Source: Planctomycetota bacterium | GTDB lineage: Bacteria; Planctomycetota; Phycisphaerae; Phycisphaerales; SM1A02 | Direction: 5' to 3' | DNA: 42,264 nucleotides | Assembly: GCA_022563315.1 (NCBI GenBank) | Contig: JADFNO010000010.1 | Coordinates: 1 to 42,264 of the forward strand | Part shown: positions 11,941 to 31,038 of the stretch, in pieces | How positions within the stretch are numbered: the first letter of the stretch is position 1 | Layout of the letters: every line of letters starts with the position of its first letter | Notes under the pieces: generated by a model | Told to the model about the DNA's origin: nothing | Seen by the model: only the letters and a program-made list of their open reading frames with translations | Databases searched by the model: none | Position numbers and translations under genes: made by a program

Positions 11941-12771
11941 ATGCGGTATTTGTTTTCCGTCGCGAGTGTGGTGTTGCTGATCGCAATGGCTTTGACGGCT
12001 GTGATCACTGCGCAGAGCAAGCCGCAATCCGACACGGCCCAGGAGGCCGAGGCGAACGAGACGCAGGAGAAGGACCAAGCGTCGTCGTTTGAACCTCCTT
12101 CGCCGCCGGCGTCGGGGCAACGAACCGAAGAGCGGCGCCGCATGGTCGAGACTCAGATTGCTTCTTCGCGCAACGGCCGGTTGCGCATCCGGGACGAGCG
12201 AGTGCTCGCGGCAATGCGCACAGCGCCGCGCCATATCTTCGTACCTGAAAAGATTCGATCACGCGCGTATGACGACACACCACTGCCGATCGGATACGGG
12301 CAGACAATCTCACAGCCGTACATTGTCGCCCTGATGACGGAGCTGTTGGAGCTGACACCGGAGTCGAGAGTTCTCGAGATCGGCACCGGCTCGGCGTATC
12401 AGGCGGCGGTGCTTGCGCAGTGCACGCCCTACGTCTACACGATCGAGATCATTGAGCCGCTTGCCGAGCGGGCGGAGACTGTGCTGCGCAGCCAAGGCTA
12501 CGACACGGTCGCCACGCGGCAGGCCGACGGCTACCACGGCTGGCCGGAAGCCGCCCCCTTTGACGGGATTATCGTGACCTGTGCGTCCGGCCATCTGCCT
12601 CCTCCTTTGTGGGAGCAGTTGAAGCCGGGAGGGCGCATCGTCATCCCCATCGGCGGACCGTATGAGCTGCAGCGACTCATCGTGATGACGAAAAACCAAG
12701 ATGGGACTCGCCGGTCTCGCACCGTCATCAGCGTTCGCTTCGTTCCCATGACGCGCAAGGAGTCGTCGTGA
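11941..12771 (+). CDS. Exported protein-L-isoaspartate O-methyltransferase
   Basis: PCMT methylates L-isoaspartyl residues in aged proteins using S-adenosylmethionine. ATG 11941 is chosen because AAGGAGG sits 6 nt upstream. This start also yields a signal peptide or anchor (MRYLFSVASVVLLIAMALTA, then VITAQSK) and a 276-aa product. A charged Glu/Gln-rich linker (30-65) precedes the catalytic domain. Diagnostic motifs are RMVETQI, the active-site loop GQTISQPYIVALM (Ser124), SAM motif I VLEIGTGSAYQAAVLA (144-159), and the late VTCASGHLPPPLWEQLKPGG. Most PCMTs are cytoplasmic, so the leader implies periplasmic repair, although SAM supply there is unclear. Its stop overlaps the start of the next gene (GTGA), so translation is coupled. 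Confidence 0.88.
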   Translation: MRYLFSVASVVLLIAMALTAVITAQSKPQSDTAQEAEANETQEKDQASSFEPPSPPASGQRTEERRRMVETQIASSRNGRLRIRDERVLAAMRTAPRHIFVPEKIRSRAYDDTPLPIGYGQTISQPYIVALMTELLELTPESRVLEIGTGSAYQAAVLAQCTPYVYTIEIIEPLAERAETVLRSQGYDTVATRQADGYHGWPEAAPFDGIIVTCASGHLPPPLWEQLKPGGRIVIPIGGPYELQRLIVMTKNQDGTRRSRTVISVRFVPMTRKESS

Positions 12772-15271: not shown

Positions 15272-16015
15272 CTACAGTGCCAGCACCTCTCCTTCGCGAA
15301 GCGGGCGCAACGCCGTCTGGGAATCATCGAAATCATCAGGCAAATGGACGAGCCTGATCTTGGCCCGCAACGCCTTCGGCAAGGCGTTGAGTTGCTCGAT
15401 CGGCGTGTGAGCCGGAGCCGAGCCGGATTCATGCACAATGACATCAGCTTGGCTGAGCCATTCGATGTGTTCCTGTTCAAACGGCGTGTCGCCCGACCAG
15501 CCGAGCGTCGTTCGCCCGTCGCTGATCAACAAGCCGATGGTCGGGATCGGATGGCGCGTGCAACGACACTGTACGGTGAGCCCCAACACCTCGGCCTTGG
15601 CGCCCGGTTCAAGAATGTGCATGTCGAAATAATCGTGCAGGGTTGCGAGGGGTTTGGCCGTGCCGGCGCGATCCATGGCCGGGGCCAAGCGCTCCCACAT
15701 TCGCTCGGCGGACGCACGGCTTGTGTGAATCCTCGGTCGAGCGCAGGTTCCATCGCATTGTCGAACGTGTGCCTGCCAGAAGCCGAACGCTTCGAGTCCC
15801 CCGCAATGATCGCCGTGCAGATGCGTGATAATGATGTCCTGAATATCGTCGAGTTGGACGTCCCACCCGGCCCGTCCGGTTGATTCACGAAGCACGCGGT
15901 GAATCAAAGCTGGGCAGTCCAAAAGCACATAGCCTTGCGGGGCCTGGATCAGCGCACTCGTGTTGAAATGCGAGCGCGTGAAGGCGTCGCCGATTCCCAG
16001 GATCAGCACTCGCAT
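15272..16015 (-). CDS. Metallo-beta-lactamase-fold hydrolase, RNase Z-like
   Basis: The protein is 247 aa. GGAGGG lies ~8 nt before ATG 16015. The zinc motif HLHGDH (65-70) is intact, as are SGDTPFEQEHIEWL (the Asp ligand region), RHPIPTIG (a probable His ligand), and a late LVHLPDDFDD His. The N-terminal MRVLILGIGDAFTRSHFNTS and the overall layout match RNase Z-type/lactonase MBL proteins. There is no signal peptide, so it is cytoplasmic. It lies 76 nt downstream of the ten-haem cytochrome on the same strand and may be the last gene of the electron-transfer operon, or an independent gene. Substrate unknown. Confidence 0.8.
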   Translation of the reverse strand: MRVLILGIGDAFTRSHFNTSALIQAPQGYVLLDCPALIHRVLRESTGRAGWDVQLDDIQDIIITHLHGDHCGGLEAFGFWQAHVRQCDGTCARPRIHTSRASAERMWERLAPAMDRAGTAKPLATLHDYFDMHILEPGAKAEVLGLTVQCRCTRHPIPTIGLLISDGRTTLGWSGDTPFEQEHIEWLSQADVIVHESGSAPAHTPIEQLNALPKALRAKIRLVHLPDDFDDSQTALRPLREGEVLAL

Positions 16016-16091
16016 CGTCCACCCTCCGTCTCAATGGGCTCGCCGCGGCTCACGCCGGTCTCGAAATCCTGGCGCATCTGTCCTTGAGCGG

Positions 16092-18518
16092 TCATGGTGT
16101 AGGACCACCGCCGGTGTTTGAGAACGACAATGAAGCGGTCGACTCGAACGAGCCGACATGATAGTTGTGACACGTCAGGCAGCCGTCGCCGACGCCGCTC
16201 GGCGTATGGCAGCCGGCGCACTGAGCCAATGACATCGAATCGAAGCTCGCTGCGTACGAGTTGGGGTTCGCGCCGGCATACGTCCGCTTCCAATCCCCCA
16301 CGGCTCCGCTATCGATCGTGCGAATCGAATGGCACGCGGTGCAATCACGGAACTGCTGGAAGTTGAAGTGCGGACGATGAGCGAACGTAGTAAAGGGGCG
16401 CTGGCCGAGCGCGGGTCGCGCGCCATGCCAGTTCACACGAAAACCTGCGGATTGACTGTCGTCAATTGCATCGACGCTATGGCAGCGTACGCAGCGCCCC
16501 GGCGCTTTATCCCGGCGCAATGTGTCAAAGACAGCATGCATCGCCGAAGCATCGATTGACGACGGCGGTGCTGAAGTAACGTCAAGCCAGGCTCGGAGGA
16601 ACGGATCGGCGTGTCCAATCGGGCGATACCGGACCGCAAAGTTCGCTTCATCCAGAAACCATCCGCCGGATTCGCCCAGGCTGAGCCGAAGGGCCTCGAG
16701 TTGCCTTTGCGCCTCGGCCGCTCCCGGATGGGCCGGATCGTCCGTCAGCTGCGTCGGCTCCTCTTGCCCTGAATCACCGAGCAGATCGTCTTCATCCCCG
16801 AACAGATCGTCGTCCTGACCCGATTGTTCGTCTCCATCGCCGCCGAGGAGATCGTCTTCGTCACCCAGGAGATCATCGCCCTCGTCCTCGCCAAATAGAT
16901 CATCGTCGGCCGGCCTGTCTTGCGCCGGCGTAGCGGTTCCTTCGCTCGACGGTGACTGGGCCGCTGGCGCAAGAGGCAATCGACCGCTGTAAAGAAGGTC
17001 CGGGTTCGCGCGGTACTGCGGCGCCTCGTCCGGTAGATCGCCGAGCCACGTTTCTTGCAGCCGATGCAAATTATGCCGCCACGTCTGATGATCACCGTAA
17101 GAGATATCAGCGGGCTGACCGGTCAGCGCCGCAAGCTGAGCGTCAGGCACCTCCGAACTGAAGGCGGCGTTCAGTCGCTGCGCCAGCGCGGCGCCGTCGT
17201 CAGCCAACAGATCATGGATGAGGATTTTGATCGCCCAGACAAGCCGTCCCGCCGCTTCGATCGCACGATCATCGGCGTCTGACAGATCCAACAGAGACGC
17301 GTTCGTCTCATCGAGCAGCGCTAAGTCCCGGGCCACGGCGGGTTCGCTCGAGAGCAGTAACCGCATGAACGGCGAGAGCGGCATCTCATCGCCGATGTTG
17401 GCATCCGCCGGCCAAGGGGCGTCTCCGATCCAAAGGCCATGTGCATCCAGCGTCTCGAGGTCCACGGCTGGAATCCCAAAGACGAGTACGCTCGGCTCAC
17501 TGAGACCGGCCCCGGCGATCTGCCGGCGATGATGATGACAACTTCCGCACGACGTCTCGAACCCACCGAGCACCATTCGCACTCCGTTGGAATCGGGCTG
17601 GTGGCAGCTCAGGCAATCGCCGGCCCAACCCTCGTCTTGGAAGTGCAGGGAATAGTGCGTCGAATGATTGAATGCGATCCGCGTTCGGCGTGTCGTCGGA
17701 TACTCGGCTGAGAACTGGGGGTGACCGCGCGAGAACGAATGGAAGTTCTGCTGATGACAGCTCTGACACGACATTGAATCCATGCGCTTCAGATCGAAAC
17801 GCCGGCCTTGATGCTCAGCATGGCAGACAGCGCAAGCGATCTCATCGGACCGGGCGAGATTCGGCGCCACCGCAGCCGCGAGCGAGGCGCGAAGTGGCAT
17901 TGATGGCGGCTGTTCACGGCCATGAGCCTTCTCCACAAGCACATCAAGCGCGTGTCGAGGAAGGCTGTGGGGCGAGCCGTACGAGGCGCCGATATTATGA
18001 CATTGCAGGCAGTTGCCGCTTTCTGTTGTCGCCGCCGGCGGCTGAAGCGACGCACGCAGCACACCGACGAGCCCGGCATCGGCGGCACTATGACATCGAC
18101 TACAGTCGTCATCAAGTTGTGCGTGGCTCGTCGAGAGCTGACCAGGCGAGACGAAAGCGCCTCGCCATGGCCCACCGATCAACACCACGAGAAAACCGAT
18201 CGTGAGGACGGCGAACCCGCTGACCATCGCGCCCCGCTTGCTGCGAACGCTGCGCACCGGCTGGCACTTGAGAATCGCGCGGCAGCATGTTCCGTCCGGC
18301 AACGGCCCAGCCTCGCATCGGCCGCCCGCAATCGTCGGCCGGGTGCACATCCAACGGTCGCCCTTGCGCACCGGTTGACATTCGTGCGTGGTCCGGCACC
18401 GACCGTGTACATCGGGACCGAGCCGACACCCGCCGCCGTCCGCCGCCCAGCCGCAGATCCATTTCTGGTTCGGTCGATCGTAGGCGCTGCGATCGTGCTC
18501 GAAGTTCTGCACGGTCAT
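16092..18518 (-). CDS. Membrane-anchored ten-haem cytochrome c with Cys-rich N-terminal doublet
   Basis: ATG 18518 is 2 nt after the stop of the cytochrome b gene, with GGAGG upstream, giving 808 aa. Residues 20-90 hold nine Cys in two copies of a motif GG-x-C-x3-GP-x4-G-x-C...CQPVR. A helix at 97-116 then anchors the protein, putting this domain in the cytoplasm and the rest in the periplasm. CxxCH sites: 139, 170, 229, 251, 302, 324, then 676, 726, 767 and 780, i.e. six plus four haems. Between them are an alpha-helical region and a very acidic stretch at 538-582 with repeated DDLLG/DDLFG units. The layout suggests a cytochrome c3-type wire attached to the b cytochrome encoded just upstream. 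The first gene of the operon has the same acidic repeat. Confidence 0.88.
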   Translation of the reverse strand: MTVQNFEHDRSAYDRPNQKWICGWAADGGGCRLGPDVHGRCRTTHECQPVRKGDRWMCTRPTIAGGRCEAGPLPDGTCCRAILKCQPVRSVRSKRGAMVSGFAVLTIGFLVVLIGGPWRGAFVSPGQLSTSHAQLDDDCSRCHSAADAGLVGVLRASLQPPAATTESGNCLQCHNIGASYGSPHSLPRHALDVLVEKAHGREQPPSMPLRASLAAAVAPNLARSDEIACAVCHAEHQGRRFDLKRMDSMSCQSCHQQNFHSFSRGHPQFSAEYPTTRRTRIAFNHSTHYSLHFQDEGWAGDCLSCHQPDSNGVRMVLGGFETSCGSCHHHRRQIAGAGLSEPSVLVFGIPAVDLETLDAHGLWIGDAPWPADANIGDEMPLSPFMRLLLSSEPAVARDLALLDETNASLLDLSDADDRAIEAAGRLVWAIKILIHDLLADDGAALAQRLNAAFSSEVPDAQLAALTGQPADISYGDHQTWRHNLHRLQETWLGDLPDEAPQYRANPDLLYSGRLPLAPAAQSPSSEGTATPAQDRPADDDLFGEDEGDDLLGDEDDLLGGDGDEQSGQDDDLFGDEDDLLGDSGQEEPTQLTDDPAHPGAAEAQRQLEALRLSLGESGGWFLDEANFAVRYRPIGHADPFLRAWLDVTSAPPSSIDASAMHAVFDTLRRDKAPGRCVRCHSVDAIDDSQSAGFRVNWHGARPALGQRPFTTFAHRPHFNFQQFRDCTACHSIRTIDSGAVGDWKRTYAGANPNSYAASFDSMSLAQCAGCHTPSGVGDGCLTCHNYHVGSFESTASLSFSNTGGGPTP
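16773..16907 (-). repeat. Acidic DDLFG/DDLLG coding repeat in the ten-haem cytochrome
   Basis: About 45 codons encode four to five units of the type DDLFGDE or DDLLGDE, with Gly/Ser/Gln spacers. The unit recurs in a different protein of the same operon (26848-26913) and nowhere else in the window that I noticed. Confidence 0.8.
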
Positions 18519-18520
18519 AC

Positions 18521-19345
18521 CTATCTCGCGCCTCCGGAGAATGCGTAGACCACCACGACGTGTACAACCATCACCATCAGCAAACCGTACGTCAAGGGAA
18601 TGTGTACAAACAACCAGCCCTTCAATGCACATTGGCAAGCGTATCGATAATCCAGATCGTCCTTGAGGCACACGAGTTCGGCGATTTGGGTCAGGCTTTC
18701 ACGATCGCTCTCCTTGACGTACCGCCTCAGCGCGTCGATCTCGTCGAGCAACGCCTGTCGTTGTCGTGTCGATTGGCCGAGATGGCTCCAAAGATTCTGC
18801 GGCCCGGCGAAGAACCGCACCAATCGGTCCTGATAGAGCTGAGAGATCGCGGTTACGTTCCCGGCATTGACAGATTCGAGGGCGAGCATCTCGGCCCGCT
18901 CGCGCAGCTGTCGGCGAATGGGGCCGATGCGCTCAAAGATTACATTTTCACCACGGCTATTGATTCGAGGCGGCAGCGTCCTCGTCAGCACAAGGCCGAC
19001 CAGCCCACTCGCCGCGACTCCCACATATAAGGCCCCAAGCAGGATCTCCAGCCCGCCGTTCGGCATCACGTATCCAATGTGGACGACAAACACCACGACG
19101 CTCACGACGCCCGCATACACATGCACCTGCAACCACGCCGAGGATGAAAACAGCGGGATAACGGACAACTTCTTCCGCACGTTGTAGGCCGCGAGCAAAA
19201 ACATGAGCACGAGCATCGCCCATCCGCTGATGTAGGCTGTCTGCATGAGCGCACCGCGCGCGATCCAATCACCCGCGATGATCAGCATGCCTCCGATCAA
19301 GGCGAGGGTCAGGTTGCGCAGCCGGCGTCGAGCGAACGTCATCAT
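18521..19345 (-). CDS. Compact membrane cytochrome b-like protein with two His-x13-His pairs
   Basis: The protein has 274 aa with about five membrane helices. Two N-terminal helices (~11-28, ~40-54) are followed by a helix with His75 and His89 (HVYAGVVSVVVFVVHIGYV), one at ~98-120, and a last helix with His248 and His262 (HIPLTYGLLMVMVVHVVVVY). Each pair is 14 residues apart, the spacing of the bis-His haem ligands in cytochrome b of bc1 complexes. Two stacked b haems spanning the membrane are therefore plausible. A charged helical loop (~125-235) with a CLKDD and CQC stretch lies between the helix groups. The start overlaps the stop of the cNMP-ferredoxin gene (ATGA), and the stop lies 2 nt before the ten-haem cytochrome. 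It probably acts as a quinol/quinone-reactive membrane subunit. Confidence 0.75.
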   Translation of the reverse strand: MMTFARRRLRNLTLALIGGMLIIAGDWIARGALMQTAYISGWAMLVLMFLLAAYNVRKKLSVIPLFSSSAWLQVHVYAGVVSVVVFVVHIGYVMPNGGLEILLGALYVGVAASGLVGLVLTRTLPPRINSRGENVIFERIGPIRRQLRERAEMLALESVNAGNVTAISQLYQDRLVRFFAGPQNLWSHLGQSTRQRQALLDEIDALRRYVKESDRESLTQIAELVCLKDDLDYRYACQCALKGWLFVHIPLTYGLLMVMVVHVVVVYAFSGGAR

Positions 19346-21057
19346 CGATTCAGAAACCTCTCCACGGCCCGCGTGTCCATCATGTCCAGGCGAACGAGGG
19401 CATCATGCGGACAAGCTCGCTGACACGGAGGATCGCCGGGCTGATCGACGGACAGATCGCACTTGGTCGCTTTGAGAATCGGTGTCTGTGAATGTTCGTC
19501 CAGGACGAAGTCGCCGGTCTCGTCGCGGATCTCCACCATGCGGATATTGTGATACGGGCAACTGTTGGCGCAGGTAGCGCAGCCGATGCAGGTCAGATCG
19601 TTGATCACGACCTCGCCACCCTGCAAATCGCGGTGGATCGCCCCGGTCGGGCAACCGATCATGCAAACAGGGTCGGCGCAATGCATACACGCATTCGCCA
19701 CCAGATAGTGGTCGAACTGTTTGCCGTGTCGAATGAAACGCGGATTCCCATCATGCGCTTCCGCACACGCGCGCACGCAATCGTCGCAACCGGTGCATCG
19801 GTTCAGGTCGATCAGCATCGTAGAAGCGCCGTTGATAAACCGGTTCTCGACAAGGAACTCGAGCATGCCGGTCTCGATTCGTGCCGGCGACTGGTCCCAG
19901 CGGCGGTCAGCGTCATGGGGCGAGCGCTCTGTTTTGCTCGGAACCTTAGAACTGCGCCTGGACAGGATATATTTCTCGACAATCACGGTGGGCACACGCA
20001 GGATGTCCACATAACCCAAAGCACGAATCGTCCGCTTGAACGGCACCGCGCGATCCCTCTGGAACGCCTCGGCCAACTCCTCGAATCCGTAGCTCTGGCC
20101 TCGGCCGAGATAGCTGATCGTCCGCTCACCGTCGCCGTATTTGCAACTGACGCGGGCGAATCCGGCACGGATCAGGATCAACCCGTCGGGATAGTGGCCT
20201 TGCTCAGCGATGATCGGCTCATGCGCCAGGCGGCGAGCCGGATCCTGAGCGGGCAGGCGCTTGAACGAACCGTACCAGTCGAACTCGCCGAACGTCTCGA
20301 AGGTGATCTGGTCTGCGACCTCGTCGAGCTCGGCTTCGCTGAGGTCACGGAACATATCTGTGGCTAGCAACTGGCTCTTGAGGCTCCGCTCTCGATAGAG
20401 TTGATCAACGTGATCGCGGATGGCCTCGGATCGGCGCCGGATGTCGCGGAATCCCTGCCAGCGCATCTCCAGCAATTCGCAGTCAGTCTCGGCGAAGACG
20501 GTGGCGGTGCGCGGGATGCGCGCCAGCGCCGCTAGTTCGCCAAAGAACGAACCCTCGGAAATCGTGGCGGTGCGGTGCTCGTCCAGCACGGTCGGAACAT
20601 CCTGGAGGAAGATGCGGGCCTGCTCACCCTCGCCTCGTTGAGCAGCGCCCGATCCGTGCGCGACATACCCTTGAACGTCGCGGTATTCGGTCGTGCGGTG
20701 ATTCGTCCAGAGCTGGGCGATGGTGCGGAGCAGGCCCTTGCGCGCCGGTTCACGTCGTCCAAGCATACGCGCAGGCATCGAGTCGATGGCAACCCGAACC
20801 GTGCCCGCCATGATGAAGAACAGCGAGCTGCCGTAATCACCCTCACGCACAATGATGTCCCCGGGGCGGGCGCGAACGATTCGGCAGTCGTTGAGAATCA
20901 ATTTGTGCAACGGCAATGCCGTGGGGAACCGTTCGGGGTCGATCTGGGAGAACGGCTCAATCGACAGCACGCGATCGACATCGGCCTCCGCCATATCCGG
21001 ATCAAAGGGAGTATCCCACCGCTGGGGCCTGGAAATGACAGCGGATCGCTGCGCCAT
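19342..21057 (-). CDS. Double cyclic-nucleotide-binding domain fused to a polyferredoxin
   Basis: ATG 21057 is chosen (GAAGGAA, 7 nt spacing), giving 571 aa. Residues ~35-210 are a CNMP/Crp-type beta-roll with an intact phosphate-binding cassette, FFGELAALARIPRTATV (Glu174, Arg183), interrupted by a ~60-residue insert after the GTVRVAI strand. Residues ~230-370 are a second, degenerate roll (DGLILIRAGFARVSC, SYGFEEL) without the Arg-Thr-Ala signature. Residues 400-571 form an HybA/NrfC/DmsB-type ferredoxin with Cys groups 421/424/427/431, 457/460/465/469, 490/493/496/500 and 533/545/549. In the last group Ser536 occupies a usual Cys position. There is no helix-turn-helix, so this is not a Crp-type DNA-binding regulator. 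It probably passes electrons between the reductase and the membrane subunits under nucleotide control. Confidence 0.88.
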   Translation of the reverse strand: MAQRSAVISRPQRWDTPFDPDMAEADVDRVLSIEPFSQIDPERFPTALPLHKLILNDCRIVRARPGDIIVREGDYGSSLFFIMAGTVRVAIDSMPARMLGRREPARKGLLRTIAQLWTNHRTTEYRDVQGYVAHGSGAAQRGEGEQARIFLQDVPTVLDEHRTATISEGSFFGELAALARIPRTATVFAETDCELLEMRWQGFRDIRRRSEAIRDHVDQLYRERSLKSQLLATDMFRDLSEAELDEVADQITFETFGEFDWYGSFKRLPAQDPARRLAHEPIIAEQGHYPDGLILIRAGFARVSCKYGDGERTISYLGRGQSYGFEELAEAFQRDRAVPFKRTIRALGYVDILRVPTVIVEKYILSRRSSKVPSKTERSPHDADRRWDQSPARIETGMLEFLVENRFINGASTMLIDLNRCTGCDDCVRACAEAHDGNPRFIRHGKQFDHYLVANACMHCADPVCMIGCPTGAIHRDLQGGEVVINDLTCIGCATCANSCPYHNIRMVEIRDETGDFVLDEHSQTPILKATKCDLSVDQPGDPPCQRACPHDALVRLDMMDTRAVERFLNR

Positions 21058-21091
21058 GCGGGTTCCTTCACCGCCGCCGGCGGCATTCCTA

Positions 21092-22219
21092 TTAGGGCTG
21101 CGCCGTCCCGTGATACTTCTCCGGGCCGGGAATGAGCGCGTCCAGCGGCGGTCGCGGTCCCAGATTCGATCCGTCGTGTGTGTTGACAAACTGCTCGGAC
21201 AGTGCAGCCAACTGATCCGGCAGTTCGTTCAGCAACGCCTGATTGATCTTGACACGTCCCTTTTCATCCCGCTCAAGCGAGGACATGAGGCACTGAATCT
21301 CTGGAAGTGAGACGCGGCTGAGAATCTCGTCAATACGCTTAACCGCACGGTTCTTACGCTTTATCATCGCATCGCGATAGGCCCCGCGTTCAGTGATTTT
21401 GGACATCCCTCGAAGGGCGTACTCCAAGTCGGTCAACGCCCCAACAACATATAAGACGCGCTTCCGCTCCACCGAAGCCTCGCGGTTGCCCTGATCGGGA
21501 TTCTGGAAATAGTTGTGGCGAACCTCACCCTGGGACCAGGAGACCAGCTCGAAGTCGCTGCCGGCGGGGTGGCCGCCGACGTTGACTAGCTTCTCGTTCG
21601 GGACCGAGTGGCACGAGTAGCAATTCCGGGCGACGAGATACACGTTGGCCGGCCGGAGCATGCCGGACGCGTCACAGGCCTTCAGACGCATCGCCCGGTG
21701 CTCAGGCGTTTCTGTTTCCTTGGTTTTGTTCGCGCCATAGTCATTGTGTACGTTGATCCAATCGGCGGCGGCGCCGTGGCACGATTCGCAGGAGACGCCG
21801 CTCACCGGCTTGGGTTTCTCATCCACGACCCTTGCGGTGTAATGGCAGTTGACGCATAGGTCGTTGCGTTTGATTCCGCCTTTAATTTCGAGCGCCGAAG
21901 CGATCTCCCGCGCTCTGGGCTTGCGGTGCATGGTGGTCCAAGTCGCAAAGTGCGTGGATCGCTTCCACGCCTCCATCTCACGGGTGTGACATTCGCCGCA
22001 GGCATCCGCGCCCTGCACCTTCGCCAGATCAAGCTCCGGCGGGAAGGCCGCGAGGCTCATCGGCGCTATGGCAGACGACACCTGCACGAACGATGTGGGA
22101 GTCGTTGCGATGTGCGGATTACTTCGCGCTGCGACTCCGTACGACGCGCCCAAACCGAGCGCCCCAAGCACGAGTATGACTGGCACGAGCCATCCTCTAC
22201 GGTGAACAACGGCCTGCAT
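21092..22219 (-). CDS. Membrane-anchored tetrahaem cytochrome c, c554-like
   Basis: ATG 22219 has AAAAGGAG 7 nt upstream and gives 375 aa; an ATG at 22237 overlaps that site and is less likely. Residues 10-30 form one N-terminal helix serving as signal-anchor. CxxCH sites lie at 74 (CGECH), 122 (CVNCH), 144 (CESCH) and 200 (CYSCH). The surrounding text (CHTREMEAWKRSTHFATW, VSCESCHGAAADWINVH) is that of the cytochrome c554/multihaem family found in NrfA-, HAO- and c554-related proteins. The C-terminal third is helical and haem-free. It lies in the middle of the operon, 34 nt before the cNMP-ferredoxin start. Likely role: a periplasmic electron relay. No catalytic substrate is evident. Confidence 0.87.
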   Translation of the reverse strand: MQAVVHRRGWLVPVILVLGALGLGASYGVAARSNPHIATTPTSFVQVSSAIAPMSLAAFPPELDLAKVQGADACGECHTREMEAWKRSTHFATWTTMHRKPRAREIASALEIKGGIKRNDLCVNCHYTARVVDEKPKPVSGVSCESCHGAAADWINVHNDYGANKTKETETPEHRAMRLKACDASGMLRPANVYLVARNCYSCHSVPNEKLVNVGGHPAGSDFELVSWSQGEVRHNYFQNPDQGNREASVERKRVLYVVGALTDLEYALRGMSKITERGAYRDAMIKRKNRAVKRIDEILSRVSLPEIQCLMSSLERDEKGRVKINQALLNELPDQLAALSEQFVNTHDGSNLGPRPPLDALIPGPEKYHGTAQP

Positions 22220-22261
22220 GGAATCACTCCTTTTCATTCTCGCTGAACGTGCAACGAGCTC

Positions 22262-23527
22262 CTACGCATCGAGCACGAGCGGTCCTTTGGGTTTACAGAC
22301 ACACGTGAGGCAGGATCCGGCCTCGGGTTCGACCCCCGTCTCAGTAGCGTACACTACCTCGCCTGATTTGATCGCGGTCAGGCAGGTTCCGCAGTTGCCG
22401 GCCCGGCAGCCGGAGTCGATTTCGATGCCATGATCCTCGGCGAATTCTAGCAGCGAATCGTAGCTGGGGTCCCAGGCTAGCGTCTTTCCCGACTTGCTGA
22501 ACGTGACCTGAGCCGCGGGAGCATCCGCTGCCGCCGACGGATCGGCCTTGGGCGCTGTCTGTTTCACCGTGGCGGGACCGAACGCCTCGAAGTGGATACG
22601 GCTCTTGGGGACGCCCCACTCCTGCAGCCCGGTCGTGAGCGATTGCATCATCGGCGGGGGACCGCAGATATAGAAGTCGTAGTTGTTCGAGGGCAGCCGT
22701 CGCTTGAACAGCTCGATACTCACCCGCTCGGCATCGTCATAGTGCTCGCCCTCGGCATCGTTGGGGCCGGGATCGCTGTAGCAAATGTTCAGATGAATGT
22801 GGTCGTGTTGGGCCGCGATACTGCGGAAGTGATCGCTCAAGATGTGCTCGGAACTGTTGCGGACGCCGTAGAAGAACCAGGTCTCGCGCTTGGAGGCGTC
22901 GGCCACGACGGCGTTGAGCATGCTCAGCACCGGGGTCACGCCGACCCCCCCGCCCACAAGCACGATCGGGTCTTGCTTGGAGAGGTCGAGAAAGAAGTGC
23001 CCGGTCGGGGCCTTGACATCGAGGATGTCGCCTTGCTGTACCTGGTCGTGGAAATAGTTGGAGGCCAAACCCGACGGCGCACCCGGCTTGTCCCGCGGCG
23101 GCCCAAGGCGCTTGATCGATAGTCGGTAATACGAAGTACCCGGCGCATCGGACAACGAGTAACAGCGGACGGTCGGCTTGTCCCGGCCGGGGATGTCAAG
23201 CTTGAAGGTGAGGTACTGGCCGGGGCTGAATCCAGGCAGGTGCTTGCGATCGTGCGGGACGAGATAAAAGGAGCAGATATCGCCGCCTTCGTCCACTTTG
23301 CGCTGCACCTCGAATTTGCGATACCCGGTCCAGGCCGAGGTCGCCTGTTCCCGTTGGGCGCGGAGCGCTCGAGCGGCGGCGACGCGATGCTCGAACAATT
23401 GGATCTCCATCCCGCGCCGAGCTTGTTCGTGCCCAAGGCGGCGGATTGAGCCCGTGAGCGCCACCAGCATCTGCACGACAATCAGCCCGAGGATCGCGGC
23501 CCCGATGATCCAGACACTATCGGCCAT
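22262..23527 (-). CDS. Membrane-anchored NAD(P)H:2Fe-2S flavin reductase, NqrF-like
   Basis: The protein is 421 aa from ATG 23527. Residues 5-25 are one membrane helix. Then come an FAD-binding domain with RCYSLS (121-126), an NAD(P)-binding domain with GGGVGVTP (192-199) and CGPPPMM (288-294), and a C-terminal plant-type 2Fe-2S domain (340-421) with ligands Cys374, Cys379, Cys382 and probably Cys409. Na+-NQR subunit F has the anchor and 2Fe-2S domain first, whereas here the 2Fe-2S domain is last, as in phenol-hydroxylase-unlike FNR fusions and flavodoxin-reductase/ferredoxin proteins. It would take electrons from NAD(P)H in the cytoplasm and pass them singly to the operon's Fe-S or haem partners, or run in reverse. 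It lies 42 nt upstream of the tetrahaem gene. Confidence 0.9.
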   Translation of the reverse strand: MADSVWIIGAAILGLIVVQMLVALTGSIRRLGHEQARRGMEIQLFEHRVAAARALRAQREQATSAWTGYRKFEVQRKVDEGGDICSFYLVPHDRKHLPGFSPGQYLTFKLDIPGRDKPTVRCYSLSDAPGTSYYRLSIKRLGPPRDKPGAPSGLASNYFHDQVQQGDILDVKAPTGHFFLDLSKQDPIVLVGGGVGVTPVLSMLNAVVADASKRETWFFYGVRNSSEHILSDHFRSIAAQHDHIHLNICYSDPGPNDAEGEHYDDAERVSIELFKRRLPSNNYDFYICGPPPMMQSLTTGLQEWGVPKSRIHFEAFGPATVKQTAPKADPSAAADAPAAQVTFSKSGKTLAWDPSYDSLLEFAEDHGIEIDSGCRAGNCGTCLTAIKSGEVVYATETGVEPEAGSCLTCVCKPKGPLVLDA

Positions 23528-23625
23528 GGGCGATCTCACCGCACCGTTGAACGTCGTGCACGTGCTCGTTCAGGTCATCGGTTGGCGTTCGAACCGCCAC
23601 GGTGGGGCCTGAGATCGAGCCTCGC

Positions 23626-25056
23626 TTAGAACTTGAACTGGAGCTCAACACGCGCGCCATAGGCCTCGTCGCCCTCCTCGGGAATCGCTCCGAAGACATC
23701 GAAACGCAGGATCGTATGTTGCCCGATCGCCTGTTGATAGCGAGCGCCGAGCGCGAAGATCGAGGCTCCATCGCCCTTAGTGCCGGTACGTCCGCCGGCT
23801 TCGAGAATCAACTGCTTACGGGTCTCGTCGAAGAACATCTGGTATCCAATGGCTCCGCCGACGGCGTTGTCGGCGCGATTCCCCAGGGCAGCGCCATAGT
23901 TGCCCAGCCCGACAGCGGCAAACAGAACGCCAGTGCGGCCGAGCGGGCCGCCGGTCGCCGGGCCGCGAGCCGCCGAGGCGAACTCGTCGATTCCCCAGAA
24001 GCCGTTGACGTATACCAGGTTGTTGGTGTGGTGCGGGGTCCACGACACCTCGGAGAACAGCAGGTGGCCGGTGCTCACGGCAGCGCTTTCATCATCCAGG
24101 GCGTACGAACCGAGCACCCGAAAGGCCGTGTTGAAATGGCGGAGTCTCTGGATCGCCCCGGCGCCCCAGTAGAAGCCATCGGCGCGACCCTCATCATCAT
24201 GGATGTAGACGGCGTCGAACTGATAGGTGCTGGATGGGAAATCCGACTCCGTGAACAGCGCGAACATATTCGTCCCGCCGGTCTCTTCATTATTGTCCCG
24301 GTGGATGTTGTCCCAACCGTAGAAGAAGGTCAGCCTCAAATCCGATCCACCCTTGGGCGTAAGCGTATCGCGCACGAGGGCCACGCCGTCGATTGTGTCG
24401 TTGATCAGCAGGCCCTCCTGAAACACCAACGGCTGTCGACCGACCGAAAATCCCCAGTCGTTGGTTCCAAAATCTGACCGATCGAGGTTGGGCAGCAATT
24501 CGCCGATGTCGCCCTCAAAGAAGAACGTTGTAAGCCGCCCGTTGAACTCGTCGAGCCAGCCGTCCGCCTCGCCGCCCGGTTCCAAGGCGTAGCCGGTGAA
24601 TCGCCCGTCCTGATCCAGCGGTCTCATCCCAACGAGAATTCGCTCCGTGCTCGTCAGTTGAAGATTACCGAACAGGTCGAGGCGGTTGACCCATTCGGTG
24701 AACTTGTCCGTGCCATCGTCGAAGGTCTGGAACGCCGTGCGGTACGTTCCGTAGATAAGCAGCGCCGGCTGCCACACCGCGCCGCCGGGCACTTCAAACC
24801 CGGGATCCAGCGTACCTGTCCCGAGGAACCGCGGGCCGAGCTCCAGAATCGGTTTCGGCCGTTGGGGAAATCCCTCGAGCTTCAGCGGGATCGGTTCATC
24901 GGGGAATCGCGCGGCGCTTTCCTGTTCGTGCGATTGCTCTTGACTGTGGTGAGCGGCGTCCTGCCCAAACGCAACCGGCGTCAGGCATCCAAAAACGAGC
25001 CCGTACGCCGCACCGCGTTGCCGCCATCTTGATGTGCCGTTGTTGAACATGCTCAT
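23626..25056 (-). CDS. Outer-membrane beta-barrel protein (porin-like)
   Basis: The chosen ATG 25056 gives ~476 aa; GTG 25071 or ATG 25050 are alternatives, since none has a strong ribosome-binding site. The signal peptide ends near LTPVAFGQ. The mature N-terminus is His/Gln/Glu-rich (DAAHHSQEQSHEQES). The rest is alternating amphipathic strands typical of a barrel (YGTYRTAFQTF, LRLTFFYGWDNIH, FNTAFRVLGSYAL, TILRFDVFGAIPE), ending in Phe (ARVELQFKF), the BAM recognition signal. It lies 24 nt downstream of the five-haem cytochrome gene. A barrel next to multihaem cytochromes recalls porin-cytochrome conduits, but the predicted haem protein must physically fit the pore, which cannot be judged here. 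Other roles (solute porin, metal uptake) remain possible. Confidence 0.78.
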   Translation of the reverse strand: MSMFNNGTSRWRQRGAAYGLVFGCLTPVAFGQDAAHHSQEQSHEQESAARFPDEPIPLKLEGFPQRPKPILELGPRFLGTGTLDPGFEVPGGAVWQPALLIYGTYRTAFQTFDDGTDKFTEWVNRLDLFGNLQLTSTERILVGMRPLDQDGRFTGYALEPGGEADGWLDEFNGRLTTFFFEGDIGELLPNLDRSDFGTNDWGFSVGRQPLVFQEGLLINDTIDGVALVRDTLTPKGGSDLRLTFFYGWDNIHRDNNEETGGTNMFALFTESDFPSSTYQFDAVYIHDDEGRADGFYWGAGAIQRLRHFNTAFRVLGSYALDDESAAVSTGHLLFSEVSWTPHHTNNLVYVNGFWGIDEFASAARGPATGGPLGRTGVLFAAVGLGNYGAALGNRADNAVGGAIGYQMFFDETRKQLILEAGGRTGTKGDGASIFALGARYQQAIGQHTILRFDVFGAIPEEGDEAYGARVELQFKF

Positions 25057-25080
25057 CGGGCCGTGACTCACTGCTGCTTG

Positions 25081-27093
25081 TTATCCGGTCGGCCCCGCCT
25101 TGGCGCCCGCCGCGCCGTCGGCATGAACATCGAAGGTGACTTCCTTTTCCCATAAGACAATGTGACCGTCTCGGATACCGTCCGCCAGCTCGCGCGGCGT
25201 CATGTCGTAGTCGATTCCCGCCAGGATGATCTCACTGAGCAGGTTGACGGGGACCATCGCCGCGATGAGTTTGATATTGGCCGCGTACGGACCATTGCCG
25301 GTCAGTTTCGACTTGTCCACTTCGTAGTGCCCCCAGCGCTCTTGAAGCGGCGGAATGGTCTTCCGGTGCTTGCGCGCTCCGGCGGGGCGGCCGTAGATGA
25401 TCGTCGGCCTGGATTCCGGTCGGATAAACGGCAGCGGATCGATCGAGTAATTGATGGGCAAGACCTGCTCTCGTTCACCACCACGGAGATTGCGGGTGAT
25501 GAACTTCGATTGCAGGCTGAACAACTGTTCATCCAACGGCAGCTCACCGTCATGCACGTACAACGAGTGCAGGTCGCGCACGTCGCCGTTCGGATCCAGA
25601 TCGCCCGATTGCATCACGACCCGGCCGGCGCGATCGGTTACCGTAACGCGCAGAAACACCAGACGCTCGGCATCGAAACCGGTTGGTACTTCGTGGCCGT
25701 CGGTCCCGTTGCGCACTTGCACCTTGAACTTGATCCCGGTCTCGTCAGCCTTTTGCGTAACGATCTCACCCAGGACGTAACCCACACGGAGAATCGCCTC
25801 GCGCTGGTCTTGCCCCCAAGCCAGCAACTCGAGGTTCTCCTGGATGATGTCGCGCGCATCGTATCGGTCGTCGATCGAGTCCCAACGAACGGGAAATTCG
25901 TAGTCTTGCGGTACGTTGTCTTCGAAATCATCGGTCCCCCACCCTGCCTTGTGATCGAAGGTCAACCATTCGCGGATCGTGGCAAGTCCTTCGGCCGTGG
26001 GATCGTCCTTCTCAGACTCCTCCTTCACGGCCTTGGCGTTCAAGGGGAAGATGCCGGGATGAATGATCGGATAATCCGGGCCCGCAAAGTAGTGATTGGT
26101 GATCTTGCGATCACGGGTGGGCACACCGCCGACGATAGCGGCCGGCCCCGTCGCATACCCCGAAACAACGCCGGGCTTCACGCCCATGTGACAGTCCTGG
26201 CAGCTCACGCCTCGCTTGGCGGCTGGTGATTGCTTGTAGGAGCTGAACGCCTCCTCCAAACGAAAGCCGTTGACCAGCGTGACGTCGTGGCATGTTCCGC
26301 AGAAACCCGACTTGTCGATCTGGAAGAACTTGACGACTTCGGTGTGAATCTTGCGACCCGGTTCGTTGGTCGTCACCACACGATACTTATCCGGGTTGGC
26401 CAGCACCCGAGCCAATTCGTCGTTGCCGGTTGGGCCGTACACCGGCGAGAGAATATCACCCTCGATAATGGCCAACCGTCCGCTGATCTTTCCGTACGCC
26501 TTGTTGACGCGGTGACAGGCGATGCAGGTCACGCCTTCACGCGACGTCGGATGACGATCGATGTTGCTCATGAACTCCGGCTCGCCGAGGTTCATCCCGA
26601 CCGGTGAATGGCAGCGAATGCAAAAGTCGCCGTTGGTCCCGTTGGTCAGCATGAGAATGGTCCCGTGCATCGCGTTGAAGACGGGGCTCATTTGCGCGTA
26701 GGCGTGCTGTGACACCGACCACTCGCGATAGTGCTTGGGATGGCATGTCGCGCACGCCGTCGCCGGGGGGAATCGATCCGCCAGGAAGACTTGTTCATGG
26801 GCGATATCAGCCGATGGTTGTATCGCCGCGGTGTCGTTCGCAGGCTTGGGCTCGTCCAGCAGGTCGTCCTCCTCGCCAAACAGATCGTCCTGCTCGCCCA
26901 GCAGATCATCCTCGTCGCGATCAGGAGGCTGCGTGTCATCTTGGGCAAGGAGCGCCCGATTCAAAGGAGGGCGACTTGCGTCGGCTGGACCTGACTGCGC
27001 TGTCGGGAGTCCAGGAGTAACCGCCAGTTGGGCCAGCGCCAATGCGACCCAGAGCGGTTTCGATCCGATCACCAGCGCATGCAGTCGTACCAC
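25081..27093 (-). CDS. Exported five-haem cytochrome c with acidic N-terminal repeat
   Basis: The GTG at 27093 follows GAGGAG with 7-nt spacing; the product is 670 aa. The signal peptide is at 1-33 (VALALAQLAVTPGLPTAQ). Residues 61-82 hold three acidic units (DDLLGEQ, DDLFGEE, DDLLDEP). CxxCH sites lie at 114, 158, 190, 265 and 298. The stretch CATCHPKHYREWSVSQHAYA and the spacing fit the cytochrome c554 family. The C-terminal ~330 residues are haem-free and contain a beta-sandwich-like region with GTDGHEVPTGFDAERLVFLR, seen in several multihaem proteins of this family. It is the first gene of the operon, followed 24 nt later by the barrel protein. Probably a periplasmic or outer-membrane-associated electron carrier, possibly an oxidoreductase. 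Confidence 0.87.
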   Translation of the reverse strand: MVRLHALVIGSKPLWVALALAQLAVTPGLPTAQSGPADASRPPLNRALLAQDDTQPPDRDEDDLLGEQDDLFGEEDDLLDEPKPANDTAAIQPSADIAHEQVFLADRFPPATACATCHPKHYREWSVSQHAYAQMSPVFNAMHGTILMLTNGTNGDFCIRCHSPVGMNLGEPEFMSNIDRHPTSREGVTCIACHRVNKAYGKISGRLAIIEGDILSPVYGPTGNDELARVLANPDKYRVVTTNEPGRKIHTEVVKFFQIDKSGFCGTCHDVTLVNGFRLEEAFSSYKQSPAAKRGVSCQDCHMGVKPGVVSGYATGPAAIVGGVPTRDRKITNHYFAGPDYPIIHPGIFPLNAKAVKEESEKDDPTAEGLATIREWLTFDHKAGWGTDDFEDNVPQDYEFPVRWDSIDDRYDARDIIQENLELLAWGQDQREAILRVGYVLGEIVTQKADETGIKFKVQVRNGTDGHEVPTGFDAERLVFLRVTVTDRAGRVVMQSGDLDPNGDVRDLHSLYVHDGELPLDEQLFSLQSKFITRNLRGGEREQVLPINYSIDPLPFIRPESRPTIIYGRPAGARKHRKTIPPLQERWGHYEVDKSKLTGNGPYAANIKLIAAMVPVNLLSEIILAGIDYDMTPRELADGIRDGHIVLWEKEVTFDVHADGAAGAKAGPTG
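26848..26913 (-). repeat. Acidic DDLLG/DDLFG coding repeat in the five-haem cytochrome
   Basis: Twenty-two codons encode three consecutive acidic units with the core DDL(L/F)(G/D). The same unit occurs in the ten-haem cytochrome at the other end of the operon (16773-16907). Confidence 0.8.
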
Positions 27094-28371: not shown

Positions 28372-31038
28372 CTAGGGCTTCGTGCTTTGGGCCCGAAGTG
28401 CGCGGTATTGAGCCGCCTTCTGAGGCTTGTCCCACGCCTCGTAGAGGCTGATGGTGCGGTCCAACGCCCTCAGCGTGTGCTGCTGCTGCTCGCCCCAACG
28501 ATCGCGAATGATCGGCAAGCTCTCAACCAGCAGCGGCTCCGCCTGTTCATAGCGGCCCAAACCGACCAGACACTCACCCAGTGCGCTTTGGGTCTCGGCG
28601 ATTCGTGACGGAACCGGAGGGGATTCATGCTCCCGGATGGCAAGGGCCTTGCGCAGTTGGACCTCGGCCTCACCAAACTCACCGCGCTTCACGTGAATCT
28701 CACCGAGCAACTGCAAGGAGTCCGCAATATCCGGGTGCTGTGCGCGCAGTAACGTTACTTGCAGTTCAAGGGCCTCGTGGCACCATCGTCGCGCCTGCTC
28801 CAAATCGCCCTGGTTGAACATCAACTGGGCGAGCGCATGGCGGGTCTTGGCAACCGACGAATGCTCGTTACCGAACTCCGCTTCCTTCAACGCCAGGGAC
28901 TCAAGGAATTGTCGCTCGGCCTTGACGTACTCACCCCGTGCTGCCAGGCACATGGCCAGCTTGTCCAGGAGCCGGGCATAGTAGAAGGGCTGACTGTGGT
29001 CCAGACCGAGCTTTTGGCTCAAGTCTAAACATTCGTCCAAAAGCGGTTCGGCCTCAGCATACCTCTCCTGATCCAGAAAACATAACGCGAGATTGTTCAG
29101 ACTCTGGGCAATCAATTCCCGATTCTCGCCGATCGCCAGCCGACGTCGAATGTCGAGTGCCAGGCGGTTTTTCTCCTCGGCCTCGGCGAACTTTGCCCTG
29201 AGCCTTAGGCATGCCCCCAGATTGTTCAAGACCTCAGCTACTTTCAGCGAGTCATCGCCGGACTCTTGACGGTAGTACTTCAGCGCCTCCCGATAGTGAA
29301 CCTCGGCGCCTTCAATGTCGCCATCAAGCCACAATTTGTCACCAAACCGAAGTTCGGCTCTTTGCCATTGTTCCGTGATCTGCCGGCGGAGGTTGCGCTC
29401 GTGGAGTAAAAGCCCTCCCGTAATCGCCAGGAGAACCGCGAGCACGATCGCCGCAATGGCGCCGAGGCGAGAGAGGCGCTTGCGCCAGGCGGCGCGTCGG
29501 CGCTGGGGCAACGTCTCTAACCGCTTGGCCAATCCCTGGGCGCTGCCCATGCGCTGCTCTTCATCACCTTCGACGCACACAGCGATGTCTTCACGCAGGA
29601 CGGGGTCGGTGATGTCACGTTCCCACCCTTGCGCCAACGGGCGCTCCAGATCCCCCACCGCCATCTGATACAGGAACACGCCCAGCGCGTAGATATCGCC
29701 GAGCACGGTGAACGGCCGGCCCGCCAGCAACTCCGGCGGCGCATACATGCGGGTCGTCGCTAAGCTGGAATCATCCGTAGTATGATCGGACGTGAACCCA
29801 GCCATTGTGATGTTGCGATCCGTCAGTTGATCATGATCAGTAAGTGTCCCAATACCGAAATCCGCCAAGCGCGGTCGCGGCTGACCGTCCTCATTCTCGT
29901 AAATCAGGATGTTTCCCGGCTTGATGTCCTTGTGCAGAATCCCGACTGAATGAGCCGCAGCAACGGCCCGCGCCGTCTGTGACACTAAATCCAGCCGCGT
30001 CTGTAGCGGCACCCGATCGATTCCGCCCTGGTCCTGGGCCCAGTCGATCAGACTTCCACCGGACGTAAACTCACTTTCCAGGAAGAACGGCGGCTCTTCG
30101 AGCTGCACTTCGAACAGCCGAGCGATGTCCTTGCGATCACCCAGCGCATCACGCAGCAAACGAAACAGCGTCAGCTCGCGCTTCAACGAGCGCAACCGAT
30201 CAGCGTTGAAACAGAATTTGAAGACACGGCGTCCTTTGGTTCGTTTGTGTTCAGCCAGCCAGACTTCGCCGAAGCCGCCTTCGCCGAGCTTGCGCGCGAG
30301 AATCCAGCCTTTCCGCTGAGGGACGGGCAGTCCACCGGCAGGTCGCCAGCCGAGCGTTTCCTCGTCTCCAGCGGCGACGGAGCGACGAGCCTTGGCCGAA
30401 TCCGGCGGCGCGCACAGCGGCGCCGCCTCAGCAACGCCGACCTCGAAGATCTCGACCGGCTCGTCGCATCCTTTGAGCACGTAGGGCCCGTGGGCCATCC
30501 ACTTCGTGTTATCCGGCGCATCGTCGCTGCCCACCACCCCCCGGCGCGCCAGATCAAAGGCGCTGCGCGTGATCAATGTCTGACCGCCCATTGCCAGCGA
30601 CATGATGCGAGCAGCCATCGGCTTGGCAAGCCCCTCCACCTCTACCGGTTTCGCGCCGCGAGCTACATCTTCCGGAGCGTTGCGTTGAACGATCAGTTCC
30701 CCAAGATGGATGCCCGTTCGAACCTGAAGCGTCGTACCCAGTTCGGCTGAGAGTTTGGCCAAGCCCTCGTGGTAGGCAAGCGCATACAGAACAGCATCAA
30801 CCGGCCGGGCGAACAGCATCAGGAACCCGTCCGTCTTGTCGATCTCCTGGCCGCCATAGGTTTTGAGTAAATCGCGGGCCAACCGATCCTGTTGGCCGAA
30901 GATCGCGGCCGCCTTGGTGTCACCAAGCCGATCGACCAGGCTTGTGGAGTCCACAAGGTCGGTCAGCAGCAATGTGGTGACAACGGTCTTGGCGGCAAGC
31001 TCGGGCTGATCCGAAGCGACGTCCATACACGACCCCAT
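28372..31038 (-). CDS. Class III cyclase-like / Ser-Thr protein kinase / TPR fusion
   Basis: The protein is 888 aa. Residues ~18-200 are a class III nucleotide-cyclase domain with LLTDLVDST (Asp27), KTDGF (Lys68, Asp70), VRTGIHLGEL, and PMAARIM (Arg144). The catalytic Asn normally just before the AAR motif is Pro140 here, so cyclase activity is uncertain. Residues ~244-510 are a Hanks-type kinase with GEGGFGEV (252-259), Lys274, HKDIKPGN (369-376), DFG (393-395) and a TR-MYAPPE activation segment, all intact. A helix at 526-546 anchors it. Residues 560-880 hold about seven TPRs of the NB-ARC/kinesin-light-chain type on the outside. The start is uncertain (ATG 31038 or 31026, no clear ribosome-binding site). 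It is likely a membrane signalling protein. Confidence 0.88.
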   Translation of the reverse strand: MGSCMDVASDQPELAAKTVVTTLLLTDLVDSTSLVDRLGDTKAAAIFGQQDRLARDLLKTYGGQEIDKTDGFLMLFARPVDAVLYALAYHEGLAKLSAELGTTLQVRTGIHLGELIVQRNAPEDVARGAKPVEVEGLAKPMAARIMSLAMGGQTLITRSAFDLARRGVVGSDDAPDNTKWMAHGPYVLKGCDEPVEIFEVGVAEAAPLCAPPDSAKARRSVAAGDEETLGWRPAGGLPVPQRKGWILARKLGEGGFGEVWLAEHKRTKGRRVFKFCFNADRLRSLKRELTLFRLLRDALGDRKDIARLFEVQLEEPPFFLESEFTSGGSLIDWAQDQGGIDRVPLQTRLDLVSQTARAVAAAHSVGILHKDIKPGNILIYENEDGQPRPRLADFGIGTLTDHDQLTDRNITMAGFTSDHTTDDSSLATTRMYAPPELLAGRPFTVLGDIYALGVFLYQMAVGDLERPLAQGWERDITDPVLREDIAVCVEGDEEQRMGSAQGLAKRLETLPQRRRAAWRKRLSRLGAIAAIVLAVLLAITGGLLLHERNLRRQITEQWQRAELRFGDKLWLDGDIEGAEVHYREALKYYRQESGDDSLKVAEVLNNLGACLRLRAKFAEAEEKNRLALDIRRRLAIGENRELIAQSLNNLALCFLDQERYAEAEPLLDECLDLSQKLGLDHSQPFYYARLLDKLAMCLAARGEYVKAERQFLESLALKEAEFGNEHSSVAKTRHALAQLMFNQGDLEQARRWCHEALELQVTLLRAQHPDIADSLQLLGEIHVKRGEFGEAEVQLRKALAIREHESPPVPSRIAETQSALGECLVGLGRYEQAEPLLVESLPIIRDRWGEQQQHTLRALDRTISLYEAWDKPQKAAQYRALRAQSTKP

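Follow-up and report, generated by a model that had tools for sequence, protein, structure and literature searches.

A conserved PCC4-type electron-transfer locus in a Planctomycetota genome and its candidate cyclic-nucleotide control

INTRODUCTION

A tightly packed set of redox genes occupies positions 16092-27093, on the minus strand, of the 42,264-nucleotide (nt) stretch of Planctomycetota DNA analyzed here (contig JADFNO010000010.1 of assembly GCA_022563315.1; hereafter the window). Judged by its genes, this locus belongs to PCC4 subgroup II, a kind of cluster named in 2017 (He et al. 2017, PMC5566968). Its seven conserved genes are abbreviated, in order of transcription, C5, BAR, RED, C4, CNF, CYB, and C10, and are followed by an eighth gene, MBL. 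They encode three multihaem cytochromes, an outer-membrane barrel, a membrane-anchored NAD(P)H reductase, a polyferredoxin that also has cyclic-nucleotide-binding domains (CNBDs), and a predicted di-haem cytochrome b. The reading that we favor, with about even confidence, is that they export electrons from NAD(P)H across the membrane under the control of a cyclic nucleotide. The gene set, its synteny, its motifs, an intact nucleotide-binding cassette, a linkage to cyclase genes, and correlated losses among relatives are all read from the sequence.

A preliminary description of the window had listed eight minus-strand open reading frames (ORFs). All eight lie where it placed them, tightly packed, with 5, 4, and 10 CxxCH motifs in the three cytochromes and with flavin, Fe-S, and cyclic nucleotide (cNMP) domains recovered by Pfam. 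It had also stated that no known system has this set, which the literature contradicts: the set is that of PCC4 subgroup II, already recorded in Planctomycetes (PMC5566968).

A PCC4 SUBGROUP II CLUSTER

As set out in the main text of He et al. (2017, PMC5566968), PCC4 clusters comprise a porin, multihaem cytochromes with 4, 5, and 10 haem sites, a five-transmembrane (TM) inner-membrane protein, and other redox genes. The inner-membrane protein carries two WX3HX13H motifs (TM3 and TM5) and an SGXXG motif on TM4. In subgroup II, whose hosts include Planctomycetes, a pfam13247 Fe-S gene lies upstream of the inner-membrane gene. The same text reports PCC4 from Zetaproteobacterial iron oxidisers and water-filter bacteria, and hypothesizes inward electron flow to quinone.

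Every one of these genomic hallmarks that was tested is present in the window, and the locus is for that reason placed in the known subgroup II. The porin is BAR (23626..25071, minus strand, as are all genes of the locus), an outer-membrane beta-barrel of 18 modelled strands without a Pfam or NCBIfam family, homologous to the barrel in the corresponding cluster of a Mariprofundus metagenome-assembled genome (MAG; locus L037). The 4, 5, and 10 CxxCH motifs are kept in the respective families: C4 (21092..22237) is a c554-like tetrahaem cytochrome c (PF13435, 57 bits), C5 (25081..27093) a pentahaem cytochrome c whose N-terminus is of signal type (PF13435, Cytochrome_C554, 41.2 bits), and C10 (16092..18518) a decahaem cytochrome c with a predicted cytosolic N-terminal 8-Cys domain, a TM anchor, and a periplasmic 10-haem part. 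The inner-membrane protein is CYB (18521..19345), a five-helix di-haem cytochrome b as modelled, which has no Pfam or NCBIfam match; W71/H75/H89 and W244/H248/H262 form its two WX3HX13H motifs and S113-G114-G117 its SGXXG. The Fe-S gene is CNF (19342..21057), which overlaps the CYB start by 4 nt and encodes two CNBDs (PF00027, 82 bits) and a polyferredoxin (PF12838; PF13247, E 3.4e-9). PCC4 subgroup II also has a redox gene ahead of the tetrahaem gene; in the window this is RED (22262..23539), 24 nt upstream of C4, an NAD(P)H:FAD reductase with an N-terminal membrane anchor and a C-terminal 2Fe-2S ferredoxin domain (PF00970, FAD_binding_6; PF00175, NAD_binding_1; PF00111, Fer2). Pfam and NCBIfam back all gene assignments except CYB and BAR. 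Experimental demonstration of function, namely extracellular electron transfer, was not found in the literature for any PCC4.

The starts of CNF and C10 were chosen from homologue conservation (21057, M45 of a longest ORF reaching 21189, and 18518, M52 of one reaching 18671, respectively). With these starts, the spacings from C5 through MBL are +9, +86, +24, +34, -4, +2, and +76 nt, and the locus is operon-like on account of gaps this small, none above 86 nt. A consensus scan for promoter-like and terminator-like sites gave no clear excess over shuffled sequence. Converging on the locus from the plus strand, a gene at 12768-15209 encodes an 813-amino-acid (aa) membrane protein weakly like polyamine aminopropyltransferase (NF002956, far below cut-off).

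SYNTENY AND MODULAR EVOLUTION

The cluster is conserved in many phyla. Related genomes were searched with CYB, and 84,980 species genomes were then scanned with a CNF alignment, yielding 549 relatives. The comparison set consists of the best 80 loci of these 549, chosen solely by CNF and ranked by likeness to the window, so that long-type CNF is over-represented. Their hosts span Planctomycetota, Verrucomicrobiota, Alphaproteobacteria, Nitrospinota, SAR324, and Mariprofundus, together with records under the labels Poribacteria, Omnitrophota, Armatimonadetes, and others; the cultured bacterium Hwanghaeella grinnelliae (L048) is one host. CYB directly follows CNF in 74/74 testable loci, and C10 comes next in 61/61, although the loci had been selected for CNF alone; 15 of the 74 CYB ORFs failed a strict filter only through an upstream in-frame start in the ORF. 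Thirty-nine loci have wide flanks: 38 of them contain RED, 36 contain C4, and 22 contain both C5 and BAR, the last two being together present or together absent in all 39. In a separate count, C5 was paired with BAR in 37/38 loci.

Pairwise distances correlate among CNF, CYB, C10, and C4 (rho 0.54-0.73), RED tracks CNF (rho 0.62), and C5 and BAR are tightly coupled (rho 0.89), compared with 0.12-0.19 between the two groups. By this measure the locus is built of two separately evolving modules, CNF/CYB/C10/C4 and C5/BAR. The check that the preliminary description had proposed, conserved synteny of the cNMP-ferredoxin, cytochrome b, and ten-haem genes, accordingly came out in its favor across many phyla, and its view of a single conserved system is upheld by the synteny and by co-evolution within the modules. 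That unrelated redox genes merely share one operon is already refuted by the invariant order of CNF, CYB, and C10 and runs counter to the co-evolution inside the modules; we regard it as vanishingly improbable for the locus at large. One such chance neighbor does exist, and it is MBL. The preliminary description had counted it as a member of the set, which did not hold: a homologue was sought in the 80 related loci and found in none, and the conserved unit consequently has seven genes, not eight.

The distribution of CNF is patchy within Planctomycetota: it occurs in 78/392 genomes and in 0/9 of the further members listed for the family to which the window belongs, a pattern that points to horizontal transfer or recurrent loss. 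A plasmid search returned partial matches only, at <60% identity, and no plasmid with full-length CNF. An all-against-all comparison of neighboring ORFs, made for a further conserved subunit, recovered mainly antisense shadow ORFs of the cluster's own genes, plus cyclases. CYB-RED or CNF-CYB fusions were sought in the 80 loci and none was found; a suspected CYB-RED fusion in one locus (L020) proved on inspection not to be a fusion.

THE CYTOSOLIC ELECTRON ENTRY

The two WX3HX13H motifs and the SGXXG of CYB are 91-100% conserved among 78 homologues, and the AlphaFold2 (AF2) model (pLDDT 93) has five TM helices, of which TM4 and TM5 are separated by a cytosolic helical domain. In RED, the RCYSLSD and GGGxGxTP motifs and the 2Fe-2S cysteines are highly conserved (68 sequences). 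The ferredoxin part of CNF has a 16-Cys pattern that corresponds to four predicted 4Fe-4S sites. At CNF residue 580 (about 19450), a ligand of the fourth site, Ser is found in the window and in a close relative (L024), and Cys in 80/83 sequences.

Relatives that lack CNF reveal which parts go with the cytosolic entry. The first of these parts is an additional domain of C10 (18231-18518), which precedes the TM helix, has eight conserved cysteines in 65/68 homologues, and has no match in Pfam or the PDB. It is placed in the cytosol because basic residues precede the TM helix. The domain is present in 65/67 C10s that lie beside CNF, plus two more, and in 0/4 C10s without an adjacent CNF; the exceptions, L057 and L101, have CNF and a C10 devoid of the domain. 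A tandem arrangement in L137 (1-7653) exhibits the same pattern within a single locus, where CNF-CYB-C10 is followed by CYB-C10 and only the first C10, beside CNF, has the 8-Cys domain. The second CYB of this tandem has no TM5 WX3HX13H motif.

The second part is a histidine of CYB. In L015 and L136, two members of one clade whose loci contain neither CNF nor RED, the first His of the TM3 motif is replaced by Gln; His is kept at this position in 78/78 CYBs of the main alignment. The basic N-terminus of TM1 suggests that this helix starts inside and ends outside, and on that topology the lost residue would be the ligand nearer the cytosol. A further relative, L139, has RED and no CNF, and its CYB keeps all four His. 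Finally, the more distant L019 (8674-13902, minus strand) encodes a NuoE/NuoF-like protein, then a CNF homologue fused to a NuoG-type N-terminus, then CYB. L019 thus has the appearance of a cNMP-linked NADH dehydrogenase with a cytochrome b and no multihaem cytochrome. Taking together these correlated gains and losses, namely the 8-Cys pattern, the His loss in L015 and L136, L139, and L019, we infer that CNF and RED sit at the cytosolic electron entry of CYB.

THE CYCLIC-NUCLEOTIDE LINK

Two lines of evidence connect the entry subunit to cyclic nucleotides. First, the phosphate-binding cassette FGE-x8-R-x-[AS] is kept in the first CNBD of 77/83 CNF homologues, with the spacing seen in protein kinase A regulatory subunits; its Arg is residue 227. 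Second, class III cyclase genes lie in 19/80 loci. In the 36 loci whose genomes had PF00211 counts, a class III cyclase is located <=2 kb from 9, compared with 0.3 expected (P about 3e-12, a value that is indicative only, as are the others of this kind, since homologous loci share ancestry and independence is overstated). Among the 18 loci in genomes with <=3 cyclases, 5 have one within 2 kb, against 0.03 expected. To test the linkage, 18 new Planctomycetota genomes were fetched; a cyclase lay nearby at 8/18 of their loci (0.15 expected), or at 2/12 (P = 0.007) when the set was reduced to one genome per genus. In seven species of one genus, each with 2 cyclases per genome, one cyclase lies beside C4-CNF-CYB-C10, and in 6/7 of these species it sits between that operon and C5-BAR, on the C5-BAR strand. 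The linked cyclases that were inspected retain the metal-binding Asp and the N..R motif, and their arrangements differ among phyla, so that several origins are likely.

These observations support the nucleotide gating that the preliminary description had proposed for the route, insofar as an intact cassette and cyclase genes beside or inside homologous clusters can predict it. Our proposal in full is that PCC4 is a second-messenger-gated exporter, in which a cAMP- or cGMP-binding domain on the entry subunit would act post-translationally as an on-off switch for the delivery of NAD(P)H electrons to acceptors in the periplasm or outside the cell, in many cases served by a cyclase of its own that is encoded within or next to the cluster; we hold it with slightly less than even confidence. 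If true, a second messenger would directly gate an electron conduit of respiratory type, and cyclases of Planctomycetota and Verrucomicrobiota would gain a concrete, testable role. No report of cyclic-nucleotide control of such a conduit was found in searchable papers, and nothing was found that links cyclic-nucleotide-binding ferredoxins with multihaem conduits, in a literature search that left subscription journals mostly outside its coverage.

Upstream of the locus in the window, on the same strand, a gene (28372..31038) joins a diverged class III cyclase-like domain to a Ser/Thr kinase and to TPR repeats; it resembles TIGR04510, "peptide modification system cyclase", below cut-off (232.7 bits; cut-off 400), and is possibly a signalling partner of the locus. 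Directly downstream of the cNMP-binding redox operon, the MBL-fold gene (15272..16015) is Apyc1-like and above the Pfam cut-off for that family of cyclic-nucleotide-degrading phage proteins (PF23023, 54.1 bits; cut-off 50). From this match, MBL is possibly a cyclic-nucleotide phosphodiesterase, a local addition outside the conserved unit. In L016, the gene beside a divergent CNF-CYB-C10 cluster (13009-14655, plus strand) encodes a protein that resembles type II NADH dehydrogenases and has a cNMP-binding domain at its C-terminus.

PERIPLASMIC CYTOCHROMES AND THE OUTER-MEMBRANE END

Conserved His residues outside the CxxCH motifs match the haems in number in C4 (4/4; H96, H164, H223, and H241, conserved in >=98%) and in C10 (10/10), and C5 has six for five haems, which suggests bis-His wires rather than active sites. 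C5 also has a conserved, haem-free C-terminal domain of ~350 aa (41 sequences) and weakly matches ExtKL-type cytochromes. C5 (26800-26950) and C10 (16700-16900) have similar acidic, low-complexity DDLFGED/DDLLGDE repeats that are absent from most homologues.

BAR is modelled by AF2 as an 18-strand barrel (pLDDT 82.8) whose fold neighbors are the OprD/Occ (OccK), MOMP, and AlgE porins (VIA Z 24-27; Foldseek E to 3e-11). MtrB is not among the fold matches listed, and no extracellular cytochrome is evident in the locus. On its predicted fold, BAR may form a channel for solutes instead of a sheath for a cytochrome. This likeness to solute porins lies at the heart of an alternative in which the porin admits a soluble acceptor for periplasmic reduction by C5 (or C4), the electrons coming from NAD(P)H and none of them crossing the outer membrane. 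Such a periplasmic reductase would also account for the co-evolution and joint gain and loss of BAR and C5, and for the weak ExtKL likeness and large haem-free domain of C5. It is held back by the conserved distal His residues, which leave no obviously open haem site in C4, C10, or C5, and by the comparison of C5 with Pfam and NCBIfam, in which no known reductase family fits over its full length. We consider it rather improbable, and its inner-membrane part is in common with the exporter that we favor.

PROPOSED MECHANISM AND ELECTRON DIRECTION

In the favored exporter, RED would oxidise NAD(P)H on the cytosolic side and pass electrons from its 2Fe-2S center through the 4Fe-4S chain of CNF to the cytosol-side haem of CYB. 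The periplasm-side haem of CYB would then feed the bis-His haem wire of C10 and, through it, C4. Electron entry would be opened, closed, or biased when the first CNBD of CNF binds cAMP or cGMP, and the separately evolving C5-BAR module would form the outer-membrane end. Electron order, outward direction, gating, and terminal acceptor are thus all proposals. Energetics favor an outward flow: NAD(P)H donates at low potential, and electrons are driven out of the cytosol by the membrane potential, as in NADPH oxidases. The preliminary description had envisaged a route from NAD(P)H or quinol to the periplasm and the cell exterior, or the reverse, and is partly supported: transfer from the inner membrane to the periplasm, with NAD(P)H as a likely partner, is in keeping with the genes, whereas electron exit across the outer membrane is unproven because BAR resembles a solute porin.

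The opposite polarity is that of the model of He et al. (2017), in which extracellular donors, Fe(II) or Mn(II) for example, would be oxidised at the outer membrane and electrons would pass through C5, C4, and C10 to CYB and the quinone pool, with RED and CNF as the connection between NAD(P) and the level of quinone or haem b. The occurrence of PCC4 in Zetaproteobacterial iron oxidisers and water-filter bacteria (PMC5566968), and of the cluster in the Mariprofundus MAG (L037), speaks for this inward conduit; so does CYB in the relatives without CNF and RED, which must have another partner, plausibly quinone. Yet iron oxidation is not known from most of the hosts found, 38/39 wide loci include an NAD(P)H reductase, import of electrons to NAD(P)+ would be uphill against the membrane potential, and neither a quinone site nor an extracellular cytochrome was identified. 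We judge an inward conduit unlikely.

Beyond the unproven outer-membrane exit, further observations weigh against the gated exporter itself. The fold search with CYB returned chemoreceptor-type helical bundles in its top rows, and its scores for SpNOX (Z 8.6) and b6f (Z 9.3) do not rise above those usual for helical bundles. Since L139 keeps RED without CNF, CNF may have a regulatory part or feed another donor instead of acting as a relay, and in some loci (L117-L123) RED is absent near CNF. The second CNBD lacks the cassette in nearly all long-type CNFs, and cyclase linkage is far from universal at 19/80 loci. In the window genome itself (a MAG of 3.76 Mb, 96% complete) no PF00211 match and hence no canonical class III cyclase was found, and the cyclase-like gene at 28372-31038 is diverged, without the N of the N..R motif.

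COMPARISON WITH KNOWN SYSTEMS

The NADPH oxidases and ferric reductases (NOX/FRD) have the same two HX13H pairs for two transmembrane haems b and a cytosol-facing FAD/NAD(P)H reductase. They differ in that PF01794 matches no part of CYB, that the reductase of the locus is a separate, anchored protein with a 2Fe-2S domain, and that the locus adds a cNMP-binding polyferredoxin and multihaem c acceptors. Na+-NQR, represented by NqrF, is not matched: RED scores 107 bits against TIGR01941 (cut-off 295), and no nqr genes lie at the locus.

Conduits of the MtrCAB type, like the locus, combine a porin and multihaem cytochromes in one cluster. Their porin, however, is large (about 26-28 strands; 28 TM for the MtrB sheath in the text of PMC5566968) and sheathes a decahaem cytochrome, whereas BAR is modelled as an 18-strand, OprD-like barrel, C10 is anchored in the inner membrane by an N-terminal TM helix and has a cytosolic domain, and the locus has no extracellular cytochrome. 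The porin-multihaem clusters of bog Verrucomicrobia (PMC5615132) are likewise porin-cytochrome clusters in PVC bacteria with possible extracellular electron transfer; they differ from the window locus in their octahaem periplasmic cytochromes and in porins with >=20 TM motifs.

PCC4 subgroup II, as the published main text presents it, has the same composition as the locus, including the absence of an extracellular cytochrome, and Planctomycetes hosts. That main text (PMC5566968) does not mention a cyclic-nucleotide domain or a cyclase and does not describe the 8-Cys domain, which the window locus and its relatives bring to light. What was already known is therefore the gene set; what is new is the CNBD cassette, the cyclase linkage, the 8-Cys domain, and the correlated losses in relatives without CNF and RED. 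A system that was named in connection with iron oxidation is recast by this evidence as a widespread, NAD(P)H-linked one that is found in many phyla and is probably controlled by cyclic nucleotides.

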